From assembly GCF_024300825.1 (NCBI RefSeq), contig NZ_CP101323.1:1116001-1180000 (forward strand): DNA of 64,000 nucleotides, in the 5' to 3' direction. Both the position numbers and the translations under genes were made by a program. The notes beneath the pieces were generated by a model. That model had not been told where the DNA came from and searched no databases. It saw only the letters and a program-made list of their open reading frames with translations. Of the stretch, positions 12,007 through 31,474 are shown one piece after another. The DNA is from Natronomonas gomsonensis. GTDB lineage: Archaea; Halobacteriota; Halobacteria; Halobacteriales; Haloarculaceae. Numbering within the stretch: the stretch's first letter is position 1; the number at the start of each line of letters is the position of its first letter.

Positions 12007-14877
12007 TCACTCAGTGCTCGTCTCCATAACGAGCTGGCGCAGTTCTGATTTGGATAGCGCGTCAATAGAGACCTGTTCTCCAGATTGAGTGTAGAATATC
12101 GACGGGCGTACCGTCCGTTCAGGATACATATCGGTGAGGACGTGGTAGTAGACGCTCAGTTGCTTCCGGTATTCCGGCTCAGCATGGCGGCTTCTATCAG
12201 TTTTGTAGTCGATGATTTCGACAGTATCTGAAGTCAGATGGAGTAAATCGATGACGCCAGAAAGAGTGACTCTTCCCCGCTCAGTTTCGAGAGGTAGATA
12301 CGCATTCTCTTCCGCGTGGAGTTTGCCAGGAAGGGAATCGAGAAGAGATTTCACGTGTCTCTCATCAGCATTCCGTGGGTCTACATCTGCCCCGAGGCAA
12401 TACTGCTCGGCGTATTCATGCACCCGAGTACCAAACTCCATTCCCTCTCCGCCTTCGACCTCCTCGTAGACTGTTTCGTCCATTAGCGAATGAGGGGAGT
12501 AACCTTCAGGACCAATACCGTCCGGGAGAGAGATTTCTAACACCTGACCCTCGTCTTTCGAAGTATCGAAGCTTGGCACGTCTGGGTCGCCAGATTGCAC
12601 ATCCACAGGAAGTTCTTCAAGGAACGTATTCGGGTCATCACCGGCAGTAAATAGGACATGACTCTCTGCACGAGTAATCGCTACGTAGAGCAGCCGTCGT
12701 TCCTCATCGTAGTCCCGTCCTAAACACCTACGGAGTACATCTACCCTCCAGTTGTCGTAAATATACGGCTGCCCGTGTGCTTCAGAGTACGTTTTGCGAT
12801 GCCTCAGCCCCGTGGCATCGTCGTACATTATCGTCTGGCTTCCACCACTTGATGGGGGGAAACGCCCGCTATTCATATTCGCCACAATAACGATTGGATG
12901 TTCGAGACCTTTCGTGGCGTGTATAGTCTGGACGGTGACCGAATTGTCCTCCGCACTCGTATTCACTTCGTGCGTGCTCCCGTGTTCGATACCGTTTGCG
13001 ATGAATCGAATGAGGTCTCCGTGGGTGAGTGTCGTCGTCTTGCGGATAGACTCGATAGTATGCAGCAGCACATCAGCGCGCGGACCAGTGAAGCCATACC
13101 GTTCGAATACCCGACGAACTACGCCCCCGAGGGAGTCAAGCGATGTGAGGGTATCACGGAACGCCAGCATCTCGTCGGGATAGGATTCCGTTTCGAGGAT
13201 GTGTTTAACCTCGTCAAGAGTGTATCCAGCACGCTCTAGGACCGGTGCCCAACCTCGTTCTCCATCGTGTTCGAGAATACGAAGCCACGCCAGAAGCAGC
13301 TTCGCCTGGTCTGTTCGGAAGAGTTCGATACCGCCCTCGTAGGCCATCGGAAGCCCGTGGTCGTCTGCAACCTGTTGGAGTTCCCGGCCGAAATCACGTG
13401 TTCGAGTCAGTACTGCGATGTCACGATACTGTGGAAGGCGAAGGTCCCCGTCGTCATCTTCAACGCGATACTCGGGACTTCCGACGATAGTATCGATAGC
13501 CGTTAGAAGTGCTTCGTGCTCGTCCTCGTGTTGTAAGGCCCGAATGGTAGAGTTGTCATGGTCGGAATTCGAGTTGAGGTGGACGATACGATTGCGTACG
13601 GATTCGACATCGACTGAATCATATTTCGCTGCTGGAACGACCAAGCTCTCCTCGGAGAAATCCAGTATCGTCTGGGTCGACCGATAGTTCTCTTCGAGTT
13701 CGATATTCTGGACCGATGAAGTGTCATACTCTACCCGTTTGTGGTCACTGTTCAATTCTGATGCGAACTGTGATAGCCGGTCACGAAACTCCAAAATGTT
13801 CTCTACAGCAGCATACTGGAACGAATAGATACTCTGCTTCCAGTCACCCACGACACAGATGTTGTCAGTATCAGCTAAGAGCAAGGCCAATTTGAATTGA
13901 ATCTCACTAGAGTCCTGAAACTCGTCGACCATCACGTAGTCGAACCCGTGTTGCTCGCGAAGGTGGTGGTCTTCACACAACAGGACGAATGCGAACAGTT
14001 GGAGGAATCCGAAGTTCAGGTAATTACGAGAGAGAGCGAATTGGAGGTACTCGAAGTACACGTCGTGGACAAATTCTTTGAGCGACTCTCGGTCCTCATC
14101 GAACACTCGGAGAGCGAGTTCCTCCGGAACCTGCTTCCCATCACCTCGGATTTCATCTTTCGGAGGCGCATTCGGTAGATAGCATTTGTTCTTTCCGTAG
14201 CGATAGAGCTTCGACCGAAGCCGTGATTGCTTGCTCCCCTCGTTGCGTGGGGTGTTCATCTGGTCGAACTGCTGTTTGAATTCGGAGTAGTCACCATCGA
14301 GGTGGCTCTCACTATCACGATACCACCCGTCTTTCGTTGGAAAGACTCCCTTGGCAGCGAGCTCGTTAATGAGGTCGAGCAGCTCGGTGGGGTCAGATAT
14401 CGTTCGGAGGATATTGCTGTACTCGGGATGGCCATCGGTGAATTGCTCGAAGAACTCCTGAAAGAGAGCCTCCTCAACGAGGTCATCCTCGATTATTCGG
14501 GTGGTGCTCGGAATGTGGTCGTCAATGCCGAGGAGGGATGGAGCGTCGAATCCGTGTTCCTGAAGAATATCATGACAGAGACTGTGGAAGGTCTGAATTG
14601 GTGCATCAGCCAGTTCAGCCATACTGTAATCACAGTGGCGGACTATGCGGTCTTTCATCTCACGGGCCGCATTCCGAGTGAAGGTAATCAATAGAATATC
14701 ATCCGGCGAGCTATCCGTCGTATCGAGAATATTTGCATACCGGCGGGTGACAGCAAACGTCTTTCCCGTGCCGGCTCCGGCGTCTACGAGATACGTACCG
14801 TCTGTGTTGTTGATGAGCTTTCGCTGCTTTTTATTCGGCTCAGGACTACCGTCGTCATCATCTGACGCTCTTCTCAT
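12007..14877 (-). CDS. AddA/RecB-like helicase-nuclease
   Basis: 956 residues. Helicase core: Q motif NKKQRKLI (about 15-22), Walker A DAGAGTGKT (about 32-40), Walker B VDEFQDSS (about 317), motif IV-like LEENYRSTQ, motif V TIHATKGLEH (about 645) and motif VI LLYVAITRAESH (about 727). The C-terminus has a RecB-family PD-(D/E)xK nuclease: MEFGTRVHEYAE, GVIDLL and EIIDYKTD (about 885). It overlaps its upstream partner by four bases (14874-14877), the gene pairing of AddA/AddB. In bacteria such enzymes process double-strand ends. Here a defence or recombination role in the element is inferred from context. Confidence 0.85.
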   Translation of the reverse strand: MRRASDDDDGSPEPNKKQRKLINNTDGTYLVDAGAGTGKTFAVTRRYANILDTTDSSPDDILLITFTRNAAREMKDRIVRHCDYSMAELADAPIQTFHSLCHDILQEHGFDAPSLLGIDDHIPSTTRIIEDDLVEEALFQEFFEQFTDGHPEYSNILRTISDPTELLDLINELAAKGVFPTKDGWYRDSESHLDGDYSEFKQQFDQMNTPRNEGSKQSRLRSKLYRYGKNKCYLPNAPPKDEIRGDGKQVPEELALRVFDEDRESLKEFVHDVYFEYLQFALSRNYLNFGFLQLFAFVLLCEDHHLREQHGFDYVMVDEFQDSSEIQFKLALLLADTDNICVVGDWKQSIYSFQYAAVENILEFRDRLSQFASELNSDHKRVEYDTSSVQNIELEENYRSTQTILDFSEESLVVPAAKYDSVDVESVRNRIVHLNSNSDHDNSTIRALQHEDEHEALLTAIDTIVGSPEYRVEDDDGDLRLPQYRDIAVLTRTRDFGRELQQVADDHGLPMAYEGGIELFRTDQAKLLLAWLRILEHDGERGWAPVLERAGYTLDEVKHILETESYPDEMLAFRDTLTSLDSLGGVVRRVFERYGFTGPRADVLLHTIESIRKTTTLTHGDLIRFIANGIEHGSTHEVNTSAEDNSVTVQTIHATKGLEHPIVIVANMNSGRFPPSSGGSQTIMYDDATGLRHRKTYSEAHGQPYIYDNWRVDVLRRCLGRDYDEERRLLYVAITRAESHVLFTAGDDPNTFLEELPVDVQSGDPDVPSFDTSKDEGQVLEISLPDGIGPEGYSPHSLMDETVYEEVEGGEGMEFGTRVHEYAEQYCLGADVDPRNADERHVKSLLDSLPGKLHAEENAYLPLETERGRVTLSGVIDLLHLTSDTVEIIDYKTDRSRHAEPEYRKQLSVYYHVLTDMYPERTVRPSIFYTQSGEQVSIDALSKSELRQLVMETSTE

Positions 14878-17468
14878 CGCCCGTCCTCCAGCAGAAGGTC
14901 GCGGTGGTTGACGCGCCGGTAATTCGGTTCGTCTACGAGGTCAGCGATAGGGAAACGCCCCTCACCAGCTCGACGGGCATTAAGCTCCTGTAGACGTTCC
15001 CGGATGAATTCCTCGAAGGCATCAAGTTCATCTTCGAAATAGTTCCGATTCCGGATACGCATGAGGTCCCGCATCGCCTGCTTGCAGCCATTTTCGACGT
15101 ATTTGTAGTCTCCTACGACATCCTTCATTTTGCTCGTGAACACGCGTCCGAACTCCGATTCGATGAGTTCGTCCCTGTCCCGAGTAGCGGGGAAGTCGGA
15201 GTCCTCGAACACGGCTGCATAGTCCTCATAAGACGATTTCGAGAGTGTCTTCTGACAGTCGTTCGACCCCTCATCCCGCAGTTGCTCGTAGGTTTCCTCG
15301 CTAGCAATATACTCGACGTAGGGAATTGGATAGTACTGGACGGTGGTAAGCGTATCATCCAAGTTTGCGCTGCCTTGGACAATGTCGTCAAGGTTCTCCA
15401 AGAAGTGGACGAAGACGAATTCAAGTTGCTCGTTGGGATGTTTCGTCCGCTGATGAGCGAGGTACAGGATAGCCTGGAAGTTGGGTGTGTCCGAGATATC
15501 GTCGATTGAGGAGTTCTTGACCACCTGTGTCGCTGACTTTTTTGACCCACTCTTGTAGTCGACCAGCCGATGCGATGATGCTACGAGGTCGATTTTGCCC
15601 TTTGCACCCAGGTCTTCGTTGTCGAACCACTGCTCCGAGATGTCAGCGCCAACAGCTCGGTCGAAGTGTTCAGCAAACGCGTTCTCTTCACGACGTCTGC
15701 TGTTGATAGCTAACTGGTCTGAGTCAGGTGCATGTCGGTCGAGAAAGCTGATGATGTTCTGTAAGCCTGCTCGGTATCGCGTTCGATGAACCCGTTCGTC
15801 TATATCGCGAACGAACGGCTCCATCTCGGCGACCATCAACTCGGCTAAGTCATCGATATCCTCAGCAGAAACCGCATCCGGATGATGGACATAGAACTCA
15901 GCGAATTCATGGAAGAGGTTTCCTTCCCGGAAGTAATCCTTGTCCGGCGAGTCGACTATTCGGTCGAAAAAGTAGTCTCTGGGTGAATTGACGTAGGTAC
16001 TGAGACTAGACTGACTGATGGTTGTGAGTTCGGTTGCAGAGACTGGCCGCGATTCAGCCTCAAACGGCTTTTCGGAAGGACTCTCCTGAGTGATATAACG
16101 CTCTGTGCTGAGGTCTGCGAAACGGGAGTACGACTCCTCCAGAAGTTCCTCGAAGTACAGACACGGCGTTACGGGGCTACCTCCCACGGTGTCCCGAATG
16201 AGGTAGTATTGCGAGGCTCCATTTTGGAGCAGGAGCTGAAATTGCCTGAGATGACGGTCGAATTCAGTTTCGCGGTCCACCCATGGTCGTCGGGGAGGAG
16301 TCCTTGTCCAGTCGTCATCTAACCCGATATAGAACACGAGTGGACGGTCAACATGGGTCGCGGATTTGGCATCGGCAAGAAGGACACCTTCATTCTCGCG
16401 GTCGATGGGAACCTCGTATGACTGTAGGTAGAATGCTAAGTCGTCAACCCTTGCTTCGGTGACCGTCTGGGATGCGAGGCCAAGCGTTTCCAGCTCTTCG
16501 TGAAACGCCCTCAACTCCGTATCATCAAGGAGTGCTTCATACTCTTCGAGCGCTGTCTCGAACGTTAGGTCACCAGCTTCGACACTGTTACACCAGTCGA
16601 TAAGCCAGTCACCTTCAGGAGCATCAAGCCTGTGCAGACGCTTCTCTTCGTGGTCAGTGTCTACTTCCCGTCCTACGTGTTGAAGGACCGGTTGGACGTC
16701 GGAAACACGGACGTCGTTCCCCCGGAAAGCGATGCGGAGGAGTTGTAGAAATGCCCGATGGTCAGGCTCATCAAGGAATCCTGGACCACCATAGAATGGG
16801 ATATCAGCAGCGTCTAACGCCGATTCAATCAGGGGAGAGAACTCGCTACCCGCATCGAGGACGATTGCGACCTCATCGGCAGTCTGCTCATCGATTGTGG
16901 AGAGAATCGCGTTGATAATGTCCGCAGATGTGTCGAAGAGACTGAACGGTGGCTGGTCGAATTTCCCGTCAGTGAAGCGGTCGACAGTATCGTAGTCAGA
17001 TGGCAGAATTGACCGCTCCAACTCGGTCAATTGGGGGTACCCGATGACAGCCAAGTCTGTCGTTTCATCGATTTCGTGGTCAGTGAGATATCGAGAGGTC
17101 GTGTCGAGATGACGGACGTGCTCAACAGCCTGTTCGACAGCAGCATTATCGAACTGGTCGTACTCCAGAATACCATCCGGTTGGGCGGTATATTCCCAGC
17201 AGTGGATGATTTCTTCGCCAAGGTAGGCCGCCTGCTTCCAGGAAAGGTCTGTCTTGTGGAGCAGTTCGAGAAAGGCTGTCCGCTCTTCGACTTGCTCACG
17301 TCGCCCGGCAGCTAATCTCCGAGGAGTCGTCGCAAACGTTCCCAGGTGGGGGCGGTCCAACTGTCGGCTCAGTGCGCTGGCAAGAGGTGCGTCCGGAACA
17401 AGAACGAGGTCGTATCCCTTGACGTCGTCATAGAGAGCAGGAAGGGACTTCGCCTGCTGAATTGGCAC
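14874..17468 (-). CDS. AddB-like PD-(D/E)xK nuclease, partner of the helicase-nuclease
   Basis: 864 residues from GTG 17468. The N-terminus (LVLVPDAPLASALSRQL) and middle (PLVFYIGLDDDWTR) look like a helicase fold without a Walker A motif, as in AddB-type subunits. The C-terminal nuclease shows AKGKIDLVASSHRLVDYKSGSKK (about 622-645), the D...D-x-K core, and FREGNLFHEFAEFYVHH, the upstream conserved His/Glu. Classical AddB has a four-Cys iron-sulphur clasp; here the corresponding region reads STYVNSPRDYFFDRI without Cys, so the cluster is probably absent. It is co-transcribed with the downstream helicase-nuclease and divergent from the DUF499 gene. Confidence 0.75.
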   Translation of the reverse strand: MPIQQAKSLPALYDDVKGYDLVLVPDAPLASALSRQLDRPHLGTFATTPRRLAAGRREQVEERTAFLELLHKTDLSWKQAAYLGEEIIHCWEYTAQPDGILEYDQFDNAAVEQAVEHVRHLDTTSRYLTDHEIDETTDLAVIGYPQLTELERSILPSDYDTVDRFTDGKFDQPPFSLFDTSADIINAILSTIDEQTADEVAIVLDAGSEFSPLIESALDAADIPFYGGPGFLDEPDHRAFLQLLRIAFRGNDVRVSDVQPVLQHVGREVDTDHEEKRLHRLDAPEGDWLIDWCNSVEAGDLTFETALEEYEALLDDTELRAFHEELETLGLASQTVTEARVDDLAFYLQSYEVPIDRENEGVLLADAKSATHVDRPLVFYIGLDDDWTRTPPRRPWVDRETEFDRHLRQFQLLLQNGASQYYLIRDTVGGSPVTPCLYFEELLEESYSRFADLSTERYITQESPSEKPFEAESRPVSATELTTISQSSLSTYVNSPRDYFFDRIVDSPDKDYFREGNLFHEFAEFYVHHPDAVSAEDIDDLAELMVAEMEPFVRDIDERVHRTRYRAGLQNIISFLDRHAPDSDQLAINSRRREENAFAEHFDRAVGADISEQWFDNEDLGAKGKIDLVASSHRLVDYKSGSKKSATQVVKNSSIDDISDTPNFQAILYLAHQRTKHPNEQLEFVFVHFLENLDDIVQGSANLDDTLTTVQYYPIPYVEYIASEETYEQLRDEGSNDCQKTLSKSSYEDYAAVFEDSDFPATRDRDELIESEFGRVFTSKMKDVVGDYKYVENGCKQAMRDLMRIRNRNYFEDELDAFEEFIRERLQELNARRAGEGRFPIADLVDEPNYRRVNHRDLLLEDGR

Positions 17469-17632: not shown

Positions 17633-20600
17633 ATGAGCGACGCCTCACCGGAAGCACCGAGTGAAGAAGGAGAGCTACCAACGATATTCGATGCTTGTAC
17701 GCCGCGTCAAGACGTTCTTATCGGTGAACTCGCAGAGGACCAGTTTGCAGCCAGTCTCGCCGATGTTGCTCACTCTGACGATGCACCTGATGTTTATTCT
17801 AACCCGGAGCTGTTCTTCGAGAAGACCTTCCCAACCGACGGATTACAGGAGCTTTTAGGACGTCTTGCGACTCGTTTCGTCTCCTACTACAACGACGAAT
17901 ATAGTGGAACGAACGGTGTGTTGCGTCTCGACACCTCATTCGGTGGAGGCAAGACCCACAACCAGATTGCTGCCTACCATCTGGCTGAACAACCAGATGC
18001 AGTTCCTGACCTCTCAGATTTTCTCGACGACGAGGGAGTTGCCGATAACTATGGAGAAGCCGCCGCTCTTGGTCTCGACGTGAATACAGCGGTCTTCGTT
18101 GGCACGCACGTCGATGGGACCAGTGCTCGATGTGACTATACCGACCCGAATGCGCCAGAGACGAAGACGATGTGGGGTGAGCTGGCGTACCAACTCTTCG
18201 GGCAGGAGGGCTACGAATTCCTTCGGGAAAACGACGAACAGCAGTCTCCCCCGGGAAGCCAGAAGCTCGAACGGCTCTTTGACAGACACGATAATCCGTC
18301 ACTGGTCCTCATCGACGAAATCGCAGCGTATCTCGAACAGACTGCTGCGGTTGAGGTGGGCGACTCGACACTCGCCAAACAGACGAATACCTTCCTGATG
18401 TCGCTTCTCTCGGCGACACAGAACACTGACCAGCTCACTGTCGTGCTGAGTATCGCAGACACGGCTTTCCACGACCGGGCTGAGGATGTCAGAGGATTAG
18501 TTGCGGAGACTATCTCCGAGTTCAACAGCATCACCGACCGTACAGAGGGCTCAATCACGCCGACTGAGGACGAGGAAGTGGCGTCTGTTCTCGGCCATCG
18601 ATTGTTTGAGGACGTCCCGGACGCTGCCCGTGAAGCGACAGCCGACGCGTACGCCTCCTTCTACAACGGTGACCGGGAGTCGTTCCCAGAACATGCGAGT
18701 TCTATGGAGCATCGTGAGCGGCTGGCTGAAAGCTATCCAATTCATCCGACCGTCATCGACACACTCACGGAGGAACTCGACTCACTCCCCTCGTTCCAGA
18801 AAACTCGCGGAGCCCTTCGACTCCTCTCGCGGGGTATCCACCAGCTGTGGAACTCTGATGCTGACGAGGACGGACGCCACTATGTTCGGCTGTTCGACCT
18901 CCACCCGTCCGATAGTGACGTGTTCACGACGCTTCTTCGGTTGTTCAGCTCGGTCGATATGGACTTCGAGGCGGCCATCAAGAACGACATCTACTCCGAC
19001 GACGGGACTGCGCACGCCGAGGAAGAAGACCGGAAGTGGACGACCAAGGGACATCCACCCCTCGGGACTCATCTGACGACGACTATTCTCTGGAAGAGCA
19101 TCGTCAAGGGAGCTGACGGACGCGGGACGACACGCCGTCCAATTCGACACGCCGTTGCTCATCTCGACGTGGAGCTCGCACACTACGATGACGCATTGAC
19201 CAACCTCCTCGGCGGCGGTCGGCAGTCGGCGTGTTTCTTCCTCCACGGAGATGCGGGCGAGAAGATTCAGTTCAAATCGGAAGCGAACCTCACTAAGACT
19301 ATCGACTCCGTCGTCGACCGACTGAAGGAGGGCTTAGCCCGTCGTCATCTGGAAGAAGCTCTCGAATCTGCACTCGGTGAGGGAACCCTCAACGTGATTG
19401 TCGGTCCCGAAGAGCCACACAAAGTGCCTGACGTGGCTGACGAAGCCCATCTCTGTGTGATGGACTTCGATACGGTGAGCGTTCACGACCCGGAGGACGT
19501 TCCCAGCGTTATCCAGACCCTCCACGAAAACACTGCATCGTCCAGCGGTGGGCAACACTCCCCGCGCGTGTATAAGAACAATATTGTCTTCCTCGCCGCT
19601 ACCGGGGACGCAATACGCGACGCCGAGCGCACTGCACAACGAGTAGCCGCTATCAAGCACATACAGAACAACCTCGGCGAGGAGTTCGACCTGAACGAGA
19701 GACAGCAAGACGAGCTGATTGAGCGTCTCGACAAAGCCAAAGGAACGCTCGACCAAGACATCAAGAAGGCGTACACCCACCTGTACTATCCCAGCGACGG
19801 CGGTCTCGCCCATCGCCGGATTACCACCGACACAACCATCCATCAGGCTGTCATCGACAAACTGGAGGAATCGGGGAAAATCATCCCCGAGGGCGAAGGA
19901 GCATACGGTGTCGAGTGGTTCGAGAAGACGCTCTGGAACAAGGGTGCTGACTCGATGACCACGCGGGCTCTCGAAGAGCAGTTCGGCAAGCGAACGAGTG
20001 TTGAGGACGACTCTGGAAACGTTCACGACGTCGAGATACTGCTCTCTCCGATTCCGTTGCGGAAGACAATTGCCCGGATGGTTTCCGAAGGCGAATATAC
20101 GTATTGGGACGGTGAAGCCAACACGGGCTATTACAGCGAGGACACGACTCTCCACGGTCATAGTAGCGACCTCAGCGATGCGACCAACCTCCAGACCGGG
20201 CTCGACTACCGGGACGTGAAGCTGGCAAAGTCACACCGCGTGTACGACTCGGTTGAGGAGCTCGTCGAGGAGGTCGACGTCGACTGGGACACGACGATTA
20301 CCTGCTCTGACTGCGGACAGACCTTCGACTCACAGGAAGCCTACGACGAGCACGATTGCGATATCGCTGAGAAAGTCACCTGCGACGAATGTGACGATAC
20401 TTTCGGCTCACAGGAGGCGTATCAAGACCACCTCCCTTGCTCAGTCGAAAGCCTGTTCCCAATGTCAGCGAGTGCGTCCACATCGTCTCCGTACCACGTG
20501 CCTCGGGCTCTGAAGGAGATGCGAGCGGACATCGATACGGCAATTGAGCGAGCCCGGTCGGAGTACTCGGGGCACCCAGATGAGATAATAACGGCAGTCG

Positions 20601-21004
20601 AGGGCGTCTGGATTCGGATAGAGGGTGCCGACGGGTGGAAGGGCGCGTGGTTCACGGCGGACAAGCTCGGCGACTCCGACGAGTTCGCAGAGCACACGCT
20701 CGTCAACTTCGACTACACCGCTTACGACGAGAGCGAGTCGATGGTGGATATCACCTACCGGGGTGACCCGTCAGCGTTCGCAGACCACTTCCGGTTCAAT
20801 ATGGAACCGGAGGACTTCTCGACGCCCGACGGTGAGCGGACAGCCGAAGCCGACTTCAGCATCGAGTTTGACGGTCAAGACGACCCGATGTTATACGGGG
20901 AAACGTTCGAAGCCCTCGACGACTTGCTCGCCGTGGACAACGCGTTCACGGTGACGATGGAAACGGAGGTTGAAATACGAGCCCGCGACCAAGGAGACTC
21001 GTAA
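17633..21004 (+). CDS. DUF499-family ATPase of an anti-phage-type cassette
   Basis: 1123 residues. N-terminal P-loop LDTSFGGGKTHNQIAAY (about 98-114), Walker B SLVLIDEIAAYL (about 222-233) and an AAA-like body (HPTVIDTLTEEL..SFQKTRGALRLLSR) match DUF499 proteins, large ATPases found beside DUF1156 methyltransferases in defence islands. Residues about 888-945 hold two tandem C2H2-like fingers (TCSDCGQTFDSQEAYDEHDC and TCDECDDTFGSQEAYQDHLPC), an addition I do not know from the family, which may read nucleic acid or recruit a partner. The last 150 residues are a beta-rich domain. It is two bases from the next gene, so it starts an operon. Leaderless mRNA is likely. Confidence 0.85.
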   Translation: MSDASPEAPSEEGELPTIFDACTPRQDVLIGELAEDQFAASLADVAHSDDAPDVYSNPELFFEKTFPTDGLQELLGRLATRFVSYYNDEYSGTNGVLRLDTSFGGGKTHNQIAAYHLAEQPDAVPDLSDFLDDEGVADNYGEAAALGLDVNTAVFVGTHVDGTSARCDYTDPNAPETKTMWGELAYQLFGQEGYEFLRENDEQQSPPGSQKLERLFDRHDNPSLVLIDEIAAYLEQTAAVEVGDSTLAKQTNTFLMSLLSATQNTDQLTVVLSIADTAFHDRAEDVRGLVAETISEFNSITDRTEGSITPTEDEEVASVLGHRLFEDVPDAAREATADAYASFYNGDRESFPEHASSMEHRERLAESYPIHPTVIDTLTEELDSLPSFQKTRGALRLLSRGIHQLWNSDADEDGRHYVRLFDLHPSDSDVFTTLLRLFSSVDMDFEAAIKNDIYSDDGTAHAEEEDRKWTTKGHPPLGTHLTTTILWKSIVKGADGRGTTRRPIRHAVAHLDVELAHYDDALTNLLGGGRQSACFFLHGDAGEKIQFKSEANLTKTIDSVVDRLKEGLARRHLEEALESALGEGTLNVIVGPEEPHKVPDVADEAHLCVMDFDTVSVHDPEDVPSVIQTLHENTASSSGGQHSPRVYKNNIVFLAATGDAIRDAERTAQRVAAIKHIQNNLGEEFDLNERQQDELIERLDKAKGTLDQDIKKAYTHLYYPSDGGLAHRRITTDTTIHQAVIDKLEESGKIIPEGEGAYGVEWFEKTLWNKGADSMTTRALEEQFGKRTSVEDDSGNVHDVEILLSPIPLRKTIARMVSEGEYTYWDGEANTGYYSEDTTLHGHSSDLSDATNLQTGLDYRDVKLAKSHRVYDSVEELVEEVDVDWDTTITCSDCGQTFDSQEAYDEHDCDIAEKVTCDECDDTFGSQEAYQDHLPCSVESLFPMSASASTSSPYHVPRALKEMRADIDTAIERARSEYSGHPDEIITAVEGVWIRIEGADGWKGAWFTADKLGDSDEFAEHTLVNFDYTAYDESESMVDITYRGDPSAFADHFRFNMEPEDFSTPDGERTAEADFSIEFDGQDDPMLYGETFEALDDLLAVDNAFTVTMETEVEIRARDQGDS

Positions 21005-21006
21005 CT

Positions 21007-21630
21007 ATGAGCAAGGGTCAGGGCTTCATCGAGGGCGAGTCTTTCGCGTTCACAAGCGGTGTCTACGGCGACCGGCCGACGTTCATCCTCACTCGGAACC
21101 GCGAGGACGACCGAGCGGAAATCACGCTGTACGAACTCGCGCCGAAAGAAATCGCCACGGCACGACAGGAGCGGTTCGACCAAGTTCACAAATCGACTCA
21201 GGTGACGACCGTCGAGCTGGGCGAAGCCATCGTCGGGGGAGAGACTCCTGCTGACCTCGACGGTGACGACCTCGGGCACGACTGGGCGGACTGGTGTGCA
21301 ATCAAAATCGCCACACTCCGTGGGAAGCGGTTCAACGAAGTGAGCTACCTCATCCAGTCGACGCTCCGGGAAGCCGGGCTGGAGCCCGAAACCGTCTGTA
21401 CGGGTGCGCCAGCGAGCCTATCGCTTCCAGAGGCCGCTGGTGTGCGGTTGTCGATTGCGTTCCGGGCGATGAAGCACGTTCAGCGACGGGATAGACTCAG
21501 GGAGATAGCTGATGGTATCTCCCAGATGAGTCTGGGGGAGTGCTACTACTGGCACGCGAAGGCAAGGTCACCGACCTCGCCAAGTGGGGTGAAAGCACTG
21601 CGAACATTACTAGCCGGCCATATTGACTAG
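21007..21630 (+). CDS. Small partner protein of the DUF499/DUF1156 cassette
   Basis: 207 residues starting two bases after the DUF499 stop. The first 100 residues are beta-rich with YELAPKEIATARQERFDQVHKSTQV. The C-terminal part, GVRLSIAFRAMKHVQRRDRLREIADGISQMSLGECYYWHAKARS...GVKALRTLLAGH, has the Tyr-Tyr-Trp and Ala-Leu-Arg-x-Leu-Leu pattern I associate with small proteins that accompany DUF499 ATPases. In related operons this place is taken by a DUF3780 protein; I cannot confirm which family this is. GC-rich composition ends abruptly at its 3' end (about 21625), where the AT-rich TBP/methyltransferase block begins. Confidence 0.7.
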   Translation: MSKGQGFIEGESFAFTSGVYGDRPTFILTRNREDDRAEITLYELAPKEIATARQERFDQVHKSTQVTTVELGEAIVGGETPADLDGDDLGHDWADWCAIKIATLRGKRFNEVSYLIQSTLREAGLEPETVCTGAPASLSLPEAAGVRLSIAFRAMKHVQRRDRLREIADGISQMSLGECYYWHAKARSPTSPSGVKALRTLLAGHID

Positions 21631-21672
21631 TTAAGTCGTGTAGAATTCACTAAATAAAAATTAAATCAAAAA

Positions 21673-22215
21673 TCATATTCCAAGCTCTTCACTAAGAGAT
21701 TTTATAGCACTTGCTACATTTTTTTCAATAGTAGTGCCAGTAATAATTATTTTACCACTTGCAAATATTAGCATCACTAAATCAAAATCTTCTGGCCGGT
21801 AAATTAAGCCTGGAAATTGCTCGGGTTCGTACTCCACATTTTCCATACCCAACTGAACGAGCGTTTCATTTAGATTTATTGAGGAACTGAGTTCTTCGAG
21901 AAATACAATATTTTGGATGTTGAACGAAACATCATTAATATCGGATATAGCACCAATCTCTTCCAGAGCCTGTAAAAATTCCATTTTTAATTTTCTTAAA
22001 TTTTGGAAGTTTGACCCACCTCGCAAGATGTATTTTCCAGTTCGGTATAATATAACTGTCCCTCGCTCTTCAAACCGGATTAAAAGTTGCCAAGAACCTC
22101 CACCTGAAAACTCAGACGATAGTGTCTTATTGCTGAACAGCTCCGATTTTATTGCTTCTAAGTTGAGTTCACGGTTTAGGTCTCCTCCAGCGACGATGTT
22201 TACCATCTCTACCAT
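21673..22215 (-). CDS. Divergent TATA-binding protein (TBP) paralog
   Basis: 180 residues, the normal archaeal TBP length, with the two-repeat saddle layout. The second repeat is clear: VEYEPEQFPGLIYRPEDFDLVMLIFASGKIIITGT (about 127-161) matches the TBP core 'YEPE.FPGL.YR......LIF.SGK...TG'. The first repeat keeps VNIVAGGDLNRELNLEAIKSEL (about 5-26) and RTGKYILRGG but lacks the FPG segment. The gene is AT-rich and convergent with the small partner gene and divergent from the methyltransferase. TBP nucleates transcription with TFB. An element-borne, half-degenerate TBP could drive the element's own promoters, poison host or viral transcription, or be an adapted DNA-binding subunit. Family assignment is firm; the role is open. 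Confidence 0.85.
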   Translation of the reverse strand: MVEMVNIVAGGDLNRELNLEAIKSELFSNKTLSSEFSGGGSWQLLIRFEERGTVILYRTGKYILRGGSNFQNLRKLKMEFLQALEEIGAISDINDVSFNIQNIVFLEELSSSINLNETLVQLGMENVEYEPEQFPGLIYRPEDFDLVMLIFASGKIIITGTTIEKNVASAIKSLSEELGI

Positions 22216-22223
22216 TAGTTATA

Positions 22224-22254
22224 CCAGAACCCGCAAGGCAATTCACCGTTCTGG
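22224..22254. promoter_or_regulatory. Inverted repeat between the TBP and methyltransferase genes
   Basis: CCAGAAC (22224-22230) and GTTCTGG (22248-22254) are exact 7-bp inverted copies with a 17-bp spacer, 9 bp upstream of the TBP start. The 167-bp divergent gap is otherwise without a gene. It is a candidate operator for the TBP gene. Confidence 0.4.
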
Positions 22255-22382
22255 TTGTGTGGGGTCATGCAGCAGCCGCTTTTTTATCGGAAGCGTGGTT
22301 ACCAATAAGCCCATGCGTAGAAAAAGGAGAACCGAAGGTCTTACACCGGCAGTTGTTATGCGTGTTAACAATTGAGTGTATT

Positions 22383-25268
22383 ATGACTGAAAAAGTAACT
22401 GACGATATAGACGGTGGAGAAACGAACGCACCGGACAGGGTTGCTATCGAAGAAAAGTTACCTTTGACAGCCATTGACATTGAAAGTCAAAAAGACATTG
22501 AGGCTGCTCGTTGCCATCCTCTCCGTAGTTTTCAAAAATGGTTTGCTGCCCGTCCAACACCGGTAGCCCGATTGGCTACTATCGCTTCGGTATACCCTGG
22601 GAGAATTGACCCGGACGAACTACTACAACTGATGCAAATAGGTCCAAAGGAGATTGATTCTGATATAAGTGACTATGTAGAAAGAAAGTTCGCAGAAAAA
22701 AAGAGTAGTGGAACGCTCGATGAGCATTATGGTTATCCGAATCCGAATACCCAATCACCATCAAAAGCCGAACTAAATGAGCTTCACAAAATAGTTCGCG
22801 ACGGGTGGGGAGGGGACCTTCCTACAATTCTTGACCCCACCGCCGGGAGGGGAATAATCCCGTTTGAATCGATACGTTATGGATTCCCAGTAAAAGCGAA
22901 CGAGCTCAATCCTGTTCCCAGCTTAATAATGAAAGCAGCTTTGAAATACGCACCTCAAGTTGGGTCACTTGAGCCAGAAGTGTATGAGTGGAGAGACAAG
23001 ATACACGAAATTGCTAAAGAAAATATTGATGAATATTTCCCGACAGAGGAACCCGGCCGCGAAATATTGAATTGTGCATTCACGTATTTGATTAAATGTA
23101 ATTCCTGCAAAGGAGAGATTCCTCTTACTGGGAAATGGTGGTTGAACAAAACTACAGATGGTGGTGATGCTGTTAAGCCGATATATCAAGATGGAACCGT
23201 CGAATATGAGCATATAAAAGTAGAAAATATACAGGATTCAGAGTATAACGTGAACGAGGGGCCAGTTACGCGGGGGGATGCAGAGTGTCCGCACTGTGGT
23301 GTTGTGACGAAAAGTGAGGAAATACGTGAAAAAATCAAAAACGAAAACTTCGAATATAGTATTTATGGTGTGAATTACAAAAACAGGAACGGAGAGCGCG
23401 TATTTCGTGCTGGGTCTGAAGTGGACAAAGAGGGGATGAATAGAGCTACCGAGCGACTACACTCCGACTTTGAAATGATGGACTTCCTCACTGAACCTAT
23501 TGAGGAGGGACTCAACACTAATCAAATTAAAAAATACGGGATGAACGAATGGAGAGATACCTTTACTCCAAGACAGCTGGTTACTCATTATGAATATCTT
23601 CAAGCATTCAATAAGTGCAAAGACAAAATCAGAGAAGAGTATAGCAAGGAGAAGTCGGATGCCATCTTAACTCTACTAACATTTTCTGCAAGCCGAGTGA
23701 TGACATTTAATAACAGGTTAGCTGCATGGCGAGACGCGTACGGAAATGGGGCATATATGTTCTCAGATAATAACTATTCGATTAAGAAGATGGCTGTTGA
23801 TAACAATATATCTGCACCTCGACATGGATACGTTGGCCAGTCCGACCGAGTTCTTGATGCATACCAAGAGCTATCGAGATTTGTCGAAAATTCGGAATCA
23901 AATGAAGTCGAAGTGCTTTCTGGGGATGCAGCGAACCTGACTGATGATATCGAATCTGGTAGCATTAATGCTGCAATCGTTGACCCACCATACTATAGCA
24001 GCATTATGTACGCAGAACTATCAGAAATATTTTATGTTCTTCAGAAGGAATATATTCAGGACATCCATCCAGGCCTATTTGATTCTAAACTGCCTAATAA
24101 AGATGATGAAGCCGTCGCAAATCCGTCTAGGTTTAGTGGCGTATCTGGGAGCGAAAAATCTAGCAAAGAGCTTGCAAACGAATTCTATGAGCAAAAGATG
24201 CAAGAGATATTCTCAGAGATACATAGTCTGCTTAGTTCTGATGGAATAATGACAATAATGTTTACGCATCGTGATATGGATGCCTGGGATACTCTCACAT
24301 CGGCATTAATTGAAGCTAACTTCACCATTACGGCCACTCATCCAATAAAGACTGAAATGTCGGACCGCGTTGGGTTGCAGGGGAAATCAAGTGCCGATAG
24401 CTCGATTCTACTTGTGGGCCGAAAGCGCGATAATGGTTCAAATAATTCTACAAGTCTCTGGGATGATATAAAATCAGATATCGAGGAGGTAGCTAAGAAG
24501 GAGGCAGAAGATATTTTCGATTCAGGGTATACCATCTCAAAGACTGATACAGCTATAGCGGCATATGGCCCGACACTTCATCGGTACGCCGAGGAATATC
24601 CCGTTGTCAATAAGAAAGGTGAGAAGATTAGACCACGCAAAGCCCTAAGCGAAGCGCGGGAAGCTGTTACAAGCGTCATCGCTGAACGGTTTCTGAATAC
24701 AGAGGGAGTGTCCGAACTTGATTCACTTACTAGGTGGTATATTCTCACATGGCTAATTTATGAGAATGATACTGTGCCATACGATGAGGGACGACAACTT
24801 GGAGTCGCTGCTGGGGTTGATATCGATGATATAAAACAATCCACAAAAATCTGGGGGAAGAGTAGAGGTGATATTCAATTAAAAAGTACAGACGACCGAG
24901 TACAGGACATCATTATGCTTCGTGATGATAGTGTCGATAATCCTTCTTCCCGGAAGTATCCAGTCAATCCAAGCGATTATAGATTTACTTACACAATTGA
25001 TACCGTACATGCTGCCTTACACGTCTATGAGAGAGAAGGTGCCGAAGCGGCATGGGACTGGCTTACCGAAAGAAACCTCAAGTCAGATGATGCATTCGGG
25101 GTTTCCGTGACGGCACTTATTGAAGTTTTACCAGAAGACAACAATATGTATAAAACACTTGTTAACCTCATCTCCGGCGAGACCGGCGAGTACCTCGACA
25201 TCAACGTTGACCACATCGATATGTCTGGCGTTGAACGACAGACCTCTCTCGGTGACCACACAGAATGA
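22383..25268 (+). CDS. DUF1156-family DNA methyltransferase
   Basis: 961 residues from ATG 22383; upstream codons are not protein-like. The N-terminal DUF1156 pattern is LTAIDIESQKDIEAARCHPLRSFQKWFAARPTPVARLATIAS (about 22-65). SAM motif I is ILDPTAGRGIIPFESI (about 148-163) and the catalytic motif is IVDPPYYSSI (about 531-540), a DPPY type expected for N6-adenine or N4-cytosine methylation. Two CxxC pairs (CNSC and CPHC, about 240-310) suggest a zinc-stabilised insertion. It probably marks self DNA for the cassette. The gene is AT-rich until about 25165, where the last 35 codons become GC-rich like the next gene. It overlaps the helicase start by ATGA. Confidence 0.88.
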   Translation: MTEKVTDDIDGGETNAPDRVAIEEKLPLTAIDIESQKDIEAARCHPLRSFQKWFAARPTPVARLATIASVYPGRIDPDELLQLMQIGPKEIDSDISDYVERKFAEKKSSGTLDEHYGYPNPNTQSPSKAELNELHKIVRDGWGGDLPTILDPTAGRGIIPFESIRYGFPVKANELNPVPSLIMKAALKYAPQVGSLEPEVYEWRDKIHEIAKENIDEYFPTEEPGREILNCAFTYLIKCNSCKGEIPLTGKWWLNKTTDGGDAVKPIYQDGTVEYEHIKVENIQDSEYNVNEGPVTRGDAECPHCGVVTKSEEIREKIKNENFEYSIYGVNYKNRNGERVFRAGSEVDKEGMNRATERLHSDFEMMDFLTEPIEEGLNTNQIKKYGMNEWRDTFTPRQLVTHYEYLQAFNKCKDKIREEYSKEKSDAILTLLTFSASRVMTFNNRLAAWRDAYGNGAYMFSDNNYSIKKMAVDNNISAPRHGYVGQSDRVLDAYQELSRFVENSESNEVEVLSGDAANLTDDIESGSINAAIVDPPYYSSIMYAELSEIFYVLQKEYIQDIHPGLFDSKLPNKDDEAVANPSRFSGVSGSEKSSKELANEFYEQKMQEIFSEIHSLLSSDGIMTIMFTHRDMDAWDTLTSALIEANFTITATHPIKTEMSDRVGLQGKSSADSSILLVGRKRDNGSNNSTSLWDDIKSDIEEVAKKEAEDIFDSGYTISKTDTAIAAYGPTLHRYAEEYPVVNKKGEKIRPRKALSEAREAVTSVIAERFLNTEGVSELDSLTRWYILTWLIYENDTVPYDEGRQLGVAAGVDIDDIKQSTKIWGKSRGDIQLKSTDDRVQDIIMLRDDSVDNPSSRKYPVNPSDYRFTYTIDTVHAALHVYEREGAEAAWDWLTERNLKSDDAFGVSVTALIEVLPEDNNMYKTLVNLISGETGEYLDINVDHIDMSGVERQTSLGDHTE

Positions 25269-28200
25269 CACTCCAAGACGTCTCGTGGCGACCGGTGTAC
25301 GAGAGCGGCTTCGGCCGCGACGAGACGTTGATGGACGCGTTCTACCGACCCTTCCTTAGCGAGGTCGTTCGGTATGACCGGCTCGCAGGCTACCTAAGCC
25401 TCCGCAGTCTCGCCAACGCTCTCGAAGGCGTCGACTCTCTGCTGGAAACCGAGGGTCGAGTGCGTGTCATCGCTGGGGCCGACCTACAGGAACGCGAGAA
25501 AGGTGCCCTGTTCCCCGATAGCGACGAACCGCTTTCGCCGTGGGTCGAGTCCCAACTCGCTATCATCGGGACGCTCCTTGACCGGGGAGACCTCGAAATC
25601 CGGGTTGGTGACCCCGCTCCCGGTGGGGGGATATTCCACCCGAAGCTCGGCATCGGAATCGACGACGCTGAGGAGCCGAACAAGCTCTCCTTCGAGGGAA
25701 GCGTCAATGAGACGCTAACCGCGTGGCAACACAACTACGAGCGGTTCAAAGTCCACCGGTCGTGGATGGACGGCGAACGCAAGTACGTCGAAGAGGATGT
25801 CGACACCTTCCAACGGCTCTGGGAGGACTCACACCCCTCCGTCGACGTGTACGAACTCGACGAGGCCGCCCAGCAGGATATCATCGACTGGACCGAGACA
25901 GACCGCGACCTCGAACAACACGTCGAACGCGTCCGCGAACACTCACCCGAAGCGACCGTCTCTGAAACTGCCGCTGGGAAGGTCGTCTCGGCCGCTGGGC
26001 GTACGCCGGGGGGACTGCACCTCGCCGAGGATATCAGCACGCTCGAACAGATATGGCCCCACCAGCGGACGATTTCTGACACGGCGGTCTCCATCTACCC
26101 GAACAAACTCCTGTTCTGTGACGAGGTCGGGTTGGGGAAGACCATCGAAATCGGACTGACGCTCTCTCGGCTCGTTCACACTGGTCAGGTTGAGAACGCG
26201 CTCCTGCTCGTCCCGGCTGGACTGGTTCAGCAGTGGCAGGACGAGCTATTCAACCGATTCAATATCCACGCCTACTACCACGACCGGGCGTACGACGGAG
26301 ACTACCTTGTTGGCCCGTTCGGTGGCCCGAACGACCACCGAGTCGAACTGGATGGCTGGCGGCAGGCCGACACGTGGAGTAACACTCCCATTGGAGGGTA
26401 CATCCGGAACCGCGACGAGCCGAGTGTCATTATCCAGTCGTGGCACACCGCCCGAATGGAAGACAACCAGCCCCACGTCGCTCCCGAGCGCGACGACACG
26501 CTCTGGGACCTCACGGTCGTCGACGAGGCCCACAGCGCACGAGAGGAGACACAGCTGTACGACCTGCTCACCAGAGTCGAGTCGGTTTCGGAGTGTCTCT
26601 ACGCACTCACAGCGACCCCGATGCAGCTGAACGTGGGCGAGCTGTACGACCTGCTCCGGTTGGTCGACTTGCCCGAGTCGTGGGATGATAAGGAGCAGTT
26701 CGAGAAGTTCTTCGAGACGCGCCGGGTGCTCGAAGAGAGCCTCAACGAGGTGGAAACGGGCTCTCGGAAGTCGAACCTTGCAGAACAGACGGTTCTTGAC
26801 TCTGTCCGGAAGGAACTGGAACTCAGTGATGACAAGGAAGGGAAACAGCTCGCCCAGACCCGCATCGAGACTTTCGCCGAGATGCTCCACGACCACATCG
26901 ATGCCTACCTCGGCTACGACGGCCGGGCACAAGAGCTCGTGGACAACACCGAATCCCTCGGGCTGAAAGAGCGAAAGTCGCTTGAGAAGTTGGTTGGGCT
27001 CAGAGAGACATCCTCGCGGTTCGATAACCCCCGCCGTCTCGCCTTCGATTGCGGCGTTGAGGGCTGGGAAGCACTCGTTGAGGCGGCCGAATGGGCGACG
27101 CCTGTCCAGTCCCGTATCTTCCGGAACACGCGGTCAGTCTTGGAGCAGTGCAAGGAACTGGGGCTGTTGGAAGACACCGTCCCGAAGCGGTCAGTCGAGA
27201 CGAAGCGAATCGACCTCGGAGAGGCGAAGCCGCTGTACGACCGGGTCGAGGACTACATCGACGACACTTACGAGGCCTCGCAGAAGGCTCTCACTGGGAA
27301 AGAGAAGCTCGCACTCGGGTTCGTCATGACGACCTACCGGCAGCGGCTCACGAGCAGTCTCTACGCTATCAAGGAGAGCCTCAGTCGCCGCATCGACAAG
27401 CTGGACGAGGAGGTTGAGGATATGACTGAGGAGGTCTCGCGGCTCAGTGAAGATACGGGAGTGACCGAAGCAACGATAGACGAAGTTGTCGGACAGACAT
27501 CGCTCGACGCGTACCGGCCGACCGGAGACCTGAGCATCGTAAGCCGCGAGCTCGAAGAGCTTCGTGACTTCATCGACGAACTGGACCGTGCAATCACCGA
27601 CCCGAAGATTGTCCACCTACGAAACGACATCAAGAGCCTCCGACAGGACGCCCGTGACAACATTGTCATCTTCACGCAGTATCAGGATACGCTCGACCAT
27701 ATTCGGCACACGCTGACCGACACACACCCGAATGTCGGAACCTACAGCGGGTCTGGCGGGAGTCGATACAACGCCGAGACCGACTCATGGGAGATGGTCG
27801 GGAAGGAAACCATCAAAAAGGAATTCACCAGCACGGGGGGAACAAATATCCTCATCTGTACGGATAGCGCGAGCGAAGGGCTTAATCTTCAGACGGCGGA
27901 CGCGCTCATCAACTACGACCTGCCGTGGAATCCGATGCGGGTCGAGCAGCGCATTGGTCGTATCGACCGCATCGGGCAGACAAATCCAGTAGTCAAAATC
28001 ATCAACTACGCCTACGAGGACAGCGTCGACGGTGACATCTATGAGGAGCTGGAGAACCGGCTCGACCTCTTCGAGGACGTCGTTGGGCCAATGCGTCCCG
28101 TCCTCAACAGTCTTGAAGGCGATATCAAGACAGCGGTCATGGACGACGATTTCGGAGATACAGGCGAACAGGTAACCGACCAAGCCGAGCAGCGCGCCGA

Positions 28201-28891
28201 GGCGGCACAGAGAGAAGCGGAAAATGCGGGCCTTGACGAGGAAGAGGAAGCCGAGGTGACGCGAGAATCGCTCATCCGTAATGCAGGGCTGGTCGGTTGG
28301 GGTGATGCTCATCATCCGGCTATAGCGGCAGTCGGCCAGCGTACTCGCGCATATGAGCCTACTGCGAGTCTTGAACTGATGGAGACTCTTCTCACACAGA
28401 GCCGAGTGTTAGGCTCGGCCGGCTGGGAGTTCACCGCTCTTCGGAACCACGACCGAGCCGACGAGTACCCCGGAACAGCACGTGGTGCGTACGTGCTGGA
28501 TGCTCCTGACCAGACTGAAATCGAGACGCCTGAGACCGCCAAAACGACGGCGCAGGCTGAGCTGAGGGGAGCTGACGAAGCGGTGGTTACCTTCGACCCA
28601 GCTGTGGCAGAGGAGTTCCCATCTATTCGTCTGTTGCTCCCCGGAGACCCGCTCTTCGATAGTCTCGTCGCAAAGACGACCCAAGGACAAGACTCCGAAG
28701 TTGCCTTCGTTTGCGGGTCTCAGGAGGCAGAAAGCGTGACCGTTGAGACAGATTACGAGGGTACTGCTGGTGCTGATGTTGTCCTACCGGCTGTCCAAAA
28801 TGACTCTCGGGGGAATTTGCCCGAGGGGACATCTTTGCCGGACGTATCAGACGCGAAGCAGACTATCCACAGCTGGTTGACTGAGGAGTGA
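25265..28891 (+). CDS. SNF2-type helicase with N-terminal phospholipase D-like nuclease domain
   Basis: 1208 residues. Residues about 10-165 are a PLD-like region with FHPKLGIG (HxK, about 123-128) and SFEGSVNETLTAW (about 143-155), the half-site typical of PLD nucleases. The SNF2 ATPase follows: DEVGLGKTIE (Walker A, about 284-293), VVDEAHSAR (about 417-425), LTATPMQLNVGELYDLL, and helicase C motifs TDSASEGLNLQ (about 865) and QRIGRIDRIGQ (about 895). It is the effector or translocase of the DUF499-DUF1156 cassette and is coupled by an ATGA overlap to the methyltransferase. The domain set resembles restriction-like systems in which the ATPase moves on DNA that lacks the protective methyl mark. 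Confidence 0.87.
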   Translation: MTLQDVSWRPVYESGFGRDETLMDAFYRPFLSEVVRYDRLAGYLSLRSLANALEGVDSLLETEGRVRVIAGADLQEREKGALFPDSDEPLSPWVESQLAIIGTLLDRGDLEIRVGDPAPGGGIFHPKLGIGIDDAEEPNKLSFEGSVNETLTAWQHNYERFKVHRSWMDGERKYVEEDVDTFQRLWEDSHPSVDVYELDEAAQQDIIDWTETDRDLEQHVERVREHSPEATVSETAAGKVVSAAGRTPGGLHLAEDISTLEQIWPHQRTISDTAVSIYPNKLLFCDEVGLGKTIEIGLTLSRLVHTGQVENALLLVPAGLVQQWQDELFNRFNIHAYYHDRAYDGDYLVGPFGGPNDHRVELDGWRQADTWSNTPIGGYIRNRDEPSVIIQSWHTARMEDNQPHVAPERDDTLWDLTVVDEAHSAREETQLYDLLTRVESVSECLYALTATPMQLNVGELYDLLRLVDLPESWDDKEQFEKFFETRRVLEESLNEVETGSRKSNLAEQTVLDSVRKELELSDDKEGKQLAQTRIETFAEMLHDHIDAYLGYDGRAQELVDNTESLGLKERKSLEKLVGLRETSSRFDNPRRLAFDCGVEGWEALVEAAEWATPVQSRIFRNTRSVLEQCKELGLLEDTVPKRSVETKRIDLGEAKPLYDRVEDYIDDTYEASQKALTGKEKLALGFVMTTYRQRLTSSLYAIKESLSRRIDKLDEEVEDMTEEVSRLSEDTGVTEATIDEVVGQTSLDAYRPTGDLSIVSRELEELRDFIDELDRAITDPKIVHLRNDIKSLRQDARDNIVIFTQYQDTLDHIRHTLTDTHPNVGTYSGSGGSRYNAETDSWEMVGKETIKKEFTSTGGTNILICTDSASEGLNLQTADALINYDLPWNPMRVEQRIGRIDRIGQTNPVVKIINYAYEDSVDGDIYEELENRLDLFEDVVGPMRPVLNSLEGDIKTAVMDDDFGDTGEQVTDQAEQRAEAAQREAENAGLDEEEEAEVTRESLIRNAGLVGWGDAHHPAIAAVGQRTRAYEPTASLELMETLLTQSRVLGSAGWEFTALRNHDRADEYPGTARGAYVLDAPDQTEIETPETAKTTAQAELRGADEAVVTFDPAVAEEFPSIRLLLPGDPLFDSLVAKTTQGQDSEVAFVCGSQEAESVTVETDYEGTAGADVVLPAVQNDSRGNLPEGTSLPDVSDAKQTIHSWLTEE

Positions 28892-31420: not shown

Positions 31421-31457
31421 ACGGCAACTTCCAAAGCAGAGAACAAAATACTCTGGG

Positions 31458-31474
31458 GTGGCGATTATCGCCAC
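31458..31474. promoter_or_regulatory. Inverted repeat upstream of the DUF262 gene
   Basis: GTGGCGA and TCGCCAC are exact inverted copies around a TTA centre, 38 bp before the DUF262 start, in the 164-bp divergent gap. A second 10-bp palindrome, CCTACGTAGG, at 31555-31564 lies 20 bp before the HEPN-like gene. Both are operator candidates. Confidence 0.4.

Follow-up and report, generated by a model that had tools for sequence, protein, structure and literature searches.

TATA-binding proteins of the TbpC class are associated with RM and BREX-type defence genes in haloarchaea

Introduction

C proteins are helix-turn-helix (HTH) regulators, and BrxR is a WYL/HTH-fold regulator of BREX. In type II RM systems, a small gene next to those of the endonuclease and methyltransferase encodes the DNA-binding C protein, a setting shared by the TATA-binding proteins (TBPs) reported here, which also resemble BrxR in that a gene of regulator type is found within a BREX locus. 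The folds are however unrelated, HTH in one case and TBP in the other, and the TBPs also accompany type I, type IIG, BREX-5 and Hma systems; any regulation by them is proposed by analogy. The TBP studied here does not have the helix-turn-helix fold of C proteins and BrxR, and only a working analogy with them is claimed.

Hma/BR DUF499 systems are defined by the joint presence of the HmaA helicase (PLD nuclease and SNF2), the HmaB methyltransferase and the HmaC DUF499 ATPase (PMC12839542). Published descriptions of these systems include no TBP, and the 2026 survey of BREX and BR systems names none in its main text (PMC12839542), in line with the original prediction that such a factor is not a known part of DUF499/DUF1156 systems.

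Among haloarchaeal TBPs, tbpC-like genes that have lost the N-terminal phenylalanine pair and kept the C-terminal one were described in 2014 (PMC4230888). No tbpC-like transcript was detected in strain PHH1, and TbpC was left as either nonfunctional or very specialised, the easy deletion of the gene in NRC-1 being cited (PMC4230888); this deletion is listed elsewhere with no apparent phenotype (PMC2121645). An association with defence is not part of the class as described, and no report of one was found in the open literature searched, a coverage that leaves out most subscription journals.

Here we analyse a stretch of 64,000 nucleotides of the Natronomonas gomsonensis genome, hereafter the window, which shares HmaA, HmaB and HmaC with the published systems and adds a TBP, its small partner being a DUF7680 protein.

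Genomes and loci compared

The window TBP was searched against 392 Halobacteriales genomes, and about 80 haloarchaeal loci (labelled L) were fetched by TBP similarity alone, blind to their neighbours; genes were then called by a codon-usage script and the neighbours listed. The family comprises 85 TBPs scoring at least 100 bits, including a few near-duplicates (e.g., L043/L118 and L037/L069). Lower-scoring haloarchaeal loci, some of them on plasmid-sized contigs, provided 20 ordinary TBPs for comparison.

The defence cassette of the window

HmaA helicase, HmaB methyltransferase and HmaC DUF499 ATPase are found together in the window, as in the definition of Hma/BR DUF499 systems, and the TBP is none of these defining parts (Table 1). 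As had been predicted, the TBP gene lies inside the cassette between the DUF7680 and DUF1156 methyltransferase genes, on the strand opposite to both and divergent from the methyltransferase. A GTG at 22257 was rejected as the methyltransferase start, since homologues, including a TBP-less allele, align from the ATG at 22383. With the start moved to this codon, the divergent gap measures 167 bp, which is room for two promoters, and a putative promoter region common to both genes is plausible there.

Table 1. Features of the cassette and their positions in the window
Feature	Position	Strand	Remarks
DUF499/HmaC ATPase	17633–21004	+	PADLOC HmaC 2e-84
DUF7680 small partner	21007–21630	+	
TATA-binding protein, assigned to the TbpC class	21673–22215	−	180 aa; Phe pair missing from repeat 1, repeat 2 intact
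Divergent intergenic region	22216–22382		167 bp; presumed promoters of TBP and methyltransferase
DUF1156/HmaB-type adenine methyltransferase	22383–25268	+	961 aa; DPPY at residue 534; PADLOC HmaB 1e-52
HmaA-type PLD/HKD nuclease + SNF2 helicase	25265–28891	+	PADLOC HmaA 6e-47
Block unlike the TBP-less G044 allele	21631–25130		Right edge approximate; TBP insert and divergent methyltransferase

The flanks of the window have a GC content of about 62–69%, and an island of lower GC extends from about 6 to 38 kb. A gene pair for a UvrD helicase-PD-(D/E)XK protein and a PD-(D/E)XK nuclease (12007–17468, minus strand) adjoins the cassette. Similar pairs are found next to three TBP cassettes of the family (L037, L060 and L069), as is a related nuclease next to the BREX-5 locus L042. 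Also adjoining the window cassette is a GmrSD-type type IV endonuclease gene with a Schlafen/AlbA_2 domain (29303–31474, minus strand); in L047, L053, L054 and L061, the gene immediately 3' of the TBP is of the GmrSD type. A terminase large-subunit gene (32375–33676, minus strand) on the island's right side suggests a provirus remnant.

A TBP with one intact and one altered repeat

The TBP gene is confirmed; its reading frame starts with ATG, and the product contains two copies of the Pfam TBP domain (PF00352, 1.2e-30). The clear second repeat and degenerate first repeat noticed initially were both recovered: repeat 2 (residues 97–177) is strong, with 79.5 bits alone, whereas repeat 1 is weak at 28.6 bits, yet over the Pfam cut-off. 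The best PDB matches by sequence are archaeal TBPs, with that of M. jannaschii on top (9e-29). An AlphaFold model (pLDDT 92) presents two folded repeats in a saddle-type TBP fold, with a TM score of 0.81 to the Pyrococcus TBP of the TBP-TFB-TATA complex 1AIS and of about 0.8 to solved TBPs. The C-terminal kinking phenylalanine pair is kept and the N-terminal pair is missing, which leaves the protein short of the four phenylalanines used to recognise a TBP; it is, by its sequence, a TBP homologue that may fall short of full TATA-box binding. The C-terminal stirrup (EYEPEQFPGL) has retained glutamates that, from TBP-TFIIB structures, we take to be contacts to TFB. Two further TBP genes are found elsewhere in the 3.65 Mb genome.

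The same pattern extends to the family, in which the kinking phenylalanine pair of repeat 2 and the TFB-contact glutamate pair are each kept in 84 of 85 members, whereas the pair of repeat 1, present in 19 of 20 ordinary TBPs, is gone in 81 of 85, with mostly tyrosine at its second site. Over 99 close pairs, dN/dS is about 0.12 for the first repeat and 0.10 for the second, hence both are under purifying selection and neither half is decaying.

A TBP tree, as called for by the original prediction, sets the family apart from the 20 ordinary haloarchaeal TBPs with a support of 99, and the TBPs of BREX-5 loci form a single group (support 98). Partner labels change 37 times on this tree versus 74.7 times with shuffled labels, which indicates that TBP-partner pairings persist, with exchange. 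The nearest tree neighbours of the window TBP are L116 and L114, all three on long branches that are perhaps falsely joined.

The phenylalanine pattern of the window TBP is that of the haloarchaeal TbpC class (PMC4230888). Its best-scoring NCBIfam model is NF001593, with 145 bits for a cut-off of 181, compared to 255 bits for the family member of Halobacterium NRC-1, 188 for that of halovirus HRTV-9 and 164 for a BREX-5 member; the window TBP thus differs from the class by a score below the cut-off and by a long branch. On the basis of the signature and of the split from ordinary TBPs in our tree, we assign it to the TbpC class, the family being presumably the published tbpC clade.

Association with defence genes

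More than 100 relatives with 30–48% identity, most of them full length, were retrieved from the 392 genomes, and more were found on plasmids and in two haloviruses. Ordinary TBPs scored lower in this search and matched chiefly through repeat 2. Among the best 80 genome matches, the non-halobacterial TBPs fitted the ordinary-TBP profile better; family members outside Halobacteria may exist as rarer cases.

The association of TbpC-class TBPs with RM and BREX-type defence genes is solid. An RM or BREX gene is immediately adjacent to 68 of the 85 family TBPs, at most three genes away in 82 and present in the fetched stretch in 84, the sole exception being located on a 3-kb contig. On methyltransferase clusters and motif alone, a methyltransferase lies within three genes of the TBP in 75 of 85 cases, and methyltransferases account for 35% of genes of at least 200 aa beside the TBP versus 0–8% five to eight genes away. 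Similarly, Pfam identified 19 N6_Mtase and 6 N6_N4_Mtase among 57 upstream neighbours, compared to one N6_Mtase in 71 genes at ranks five and six. From the reverse direction, 28 of 135 HsdM_N matches in 384 genomes are within 10 kb of a family TBP, for 0.48 expected under random placement. None of the 20 ordinary haloarchaeal TBPs has such a gene in the surrounding 5–16 kb, as judged by resemblance to RM genes found at the family loci. The distance, ordinary-TBP and HsdM controls led us to reject a TBP that lies by chance near a defence island. The TBP is not an isolated case, nor is it restricted to DUF499 systems.

Partner systems and locus anatomy

Partners include type I RM, type II, type IIG, BREX-5 and MADS-like systems, two DUF1156/DUF499 loci, and an Eco57I-type methyltransferase with a BrxHII-like SNF2 helicase; a methyltransferase is the only thing common to these unrelated system types. 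In 31 loci the TBP comes after an RM gene of its own strand, in 18 it is divergent from one and in 10 it comes before one, the remaining loci having a mixed arrangement or an RM gene one to three genes away. Within a BREX locus, the TBP is found divergent from PglX. L116 presents the order TBP, MjaI-type endonuclease and methyltransferase, and in L114 the TBP is followed by a NotI-like endonuclease, which is the place of a bacterial C gene; neither locus has a SNF2 helicase nearby.

Several cassettes encode two TBPs. In L052 (2821–3369 and 6310–6858) and L080 (8080–8628 and 11591–12148), the two TBPs of one methyltransferase-helicase cassette carry complementary changes, one having lost only the C-terminal phenylalanine pair (FFSP) and the other only the N-terminal pair (YYFF), and might work as a pair. 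In L095 (5225–12268), family TBPs from separate parts of the tree lie on either side of a type I RM operon, two in all.

A four-base stop/start overlap joins the TBP to the preceding gene in 17 loci, and overlap with a BrxHII-like SNF2 helicase gene is frequent. SNF2 enzymes with TBP or RNA polymerase as their target include Mot1 and RapA. The frequent translational overlap, along with RapA_C-like matches in some BrxHII-like helicases of the family loci, would fit a structural subunit, namely a clamp of bent DNA that loads or places the methyltransferase or the SNF2 helicase, perhaps at active promoters. We consider this unlikely, as the same class of TBP stands beside type II systems made of methyltransferase and endonuclease only (L114, L116), is missing from near-identical Hma cassettes, and would have no need as a subunit to keep TFB-contact residues.

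The haloviruses carry the TBP as well, after a type IIG gene in HRTV-9 and, in HJTV-2, in the vicinity of genes for an N4 methyltransferase and for an Eco29kI-type endonuclease. That viruses bring it along with RM genes of their own speaks against a decoy, or dominant-negative factor, shutting down the transcription of virus or host upon infection as an abortive response. Such a role could draw on the half-altered DNA surface and the defence context, but the TBP is tied to methyltransferases and not to toxic effectors, and the retained TFB contacts and C-terminal phenylalanine pair point to productive complexes, which makes it very unlikely. Of the three roles originally proposed (promoter selector, dominant-negative block and DNA-binding subunit), promoter selection is the one best matched by the conservation of the TFB-contact stirrup and of the C-terminal phenylalanine pair, and the dominant-negative role is less likely.

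TBP-less alleles of the window cassette

The HmaA proteins of G051 and G044 are 97% and 91% identical to that of the window, and both loci are devoid of a TBP, as are all 9 other HmaA-homologous loci examined, these two included. A TBP divergent from the methyltransferase also occurs in another DUF499/DUF1156 locus, on a plasmid of Halorientalis litorea, so that the original prediction, which would have failed had no other such locus carried a TBP, is not refuted. Its scope was nonetheless wrong: a standing component of such systems is contradicted by the 9 HmaA-family loci without TBP, and TBPs of the same clade are found beside type I, type II and type IIG RM, BREX-5 and related genes.

In G044 the methyltransferase starts 10 bp after DUF7680, whereas the window has 752 bp containing the TBP in that place, so that its methyltransferase-helicase pair has gained an upstream region of its own. 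The methyltransferase DNA of the two alleles is only 53–68% identical, returning to about 90% near the gene end, for 80–94% and about 90% identity in the flanks of the differing block. TBP and methyltransferase of the window therefore differ jointly from the TBP-less allele, as if swapped as one unit. In G051 (L104: 9970–12084) the TBP slot is filled by two other genes of 213 and 478 aa, which makes this junction a variable slot.

The TBP-methyltransferase block has a GC content of 0.38–0.44 versus 0.57–0.61 for the DUF499, DUF7680 and helicase genes. This low GC, together with the plasmid, island and virus locations of the family, would be expected from a portable initiation factor that ensures the transcription of AT-rich mobile cassettes whatever the haloarchaeal host, but provides no specific timing or feedback; this is a weaker version of the explanation that we favour below. 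However, many equally mobile RM systems have no TBP, including about four fifths of HsdM genes, and portability by itself seems quite unlikely to us.

The probable tbpC gene of Halobacterium

The family member on pNRC200 of Halobacterium NRC-1 has the TbpC signature, passes NF001593 and follows helicase and methyltransferase genes; from its signature, it would be the gene named tbpC. The upstream methyltransferase is split by ISH27-2 on pNRC200 (L236: 484–6062), whereas it is a single intact gene on pHS4 of strain R1 (L235: 2878–7062). This split may explain the absent phenotype of the NRC-1 tbpC deletion, which was possibly made in a broken cassette.

A decaying, functionless TBP paralogue riding mobile islands was one option raised for TbpC in 2014 (PMC4230888), and the NRC-1 deletion could be read in this way (PMC2121645). 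In addition to the state of the NRC-1 cassette, the low dN/dS of both repeats, the start/stop overlaps, the clustering of partner types on the tree and an adjacency far above chance all contradict such decay, which appears extremely doubtful.

A proposed cassette-dedicated initiation factor

We propose, with moderate confidence and with a mechanism read from sequence, that the TBP serves methyltransferase-based defence cassettes as their dedicated partner, most likely as a cassette-specific initiation factor. A promoter-selecting role is argued for by the kept TFB side, the altered DNA side, the constraint on both halves and the many unrelated methyltransferase neighbours. Repeat 2 would bind TFB and bend one promoter half as in any TBP, whereas the altered repeat 1 would read a non-standard other half; a complex of TBP, TFB and RNA polymerase would then form selectively at the cassette's own promoters. 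The outcome would be an autoregulated and separately timed supply of methyltransferase and effector, a task that may be equivalent to that of C proteins in bacterial RM systems and of BrxR in BREX.

Upstream sequences were searched for shared elements. Neither a general 10-mer nor a common DNA motif was found upstream of the family TBPs. An 8-bp inverted repeat, ACCAGAAC-N17-GTTCTGGT, in the gap between TBP and methyltransferase was rejected as an operator, such repeats occurring upstream of 8 of 85 members versus 5.5 expected. A TATA-like element, TTATATTCG, recurs exactly in a few members of one clade only, and the conserved blocks of the BREX-5 and MADS-like intergenic regions are indistinguishable from shared descent.

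In favour of the promoter-selecting role we count the association controls, the overlaps, the C-gene order of L116 and L114, the conserved residues, the dN/dS values and the joint difference of TBP and methyltransferase between alleles. Against it we count the absence of a common upstream motif in the family, the position of the TBP as last rather than first gene of the RM unit in 31 loci, unlike most C genes, the NRC-1 tbpC deletion without phenotype (PMC2121645), although the partner methyltransferase is interrupted there, and the related cassettes that manage without a TBP. The negative motif searches and the frequent 3' position are its main weaknesses.

Significance

Many haloarchaea carry TBPs of the TbpC class, which had remained an orphan for over a decade and was suspected dead. 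The association reported here places the class in a setting common to at least six kinds of defence systems. We give about even chances to the broader idea that the TbpC lineage was captured by defence, the TBP of each cassette having a private half-site and forming a dedicated initiation complex with the host TFB; if true, RM and BREX genes would be governed by the choice of TBP and not by a classical regulator. The window TBP probably serves to switch the defence cassette in which it is encoded, the role of the TbpC class being so far unexplained. Why haloarchaea keep many TBPs is an old question that becomes testable in part, and the finding suggests a way in which RM and BREX genes of archaea could be safely switched on after transfer.
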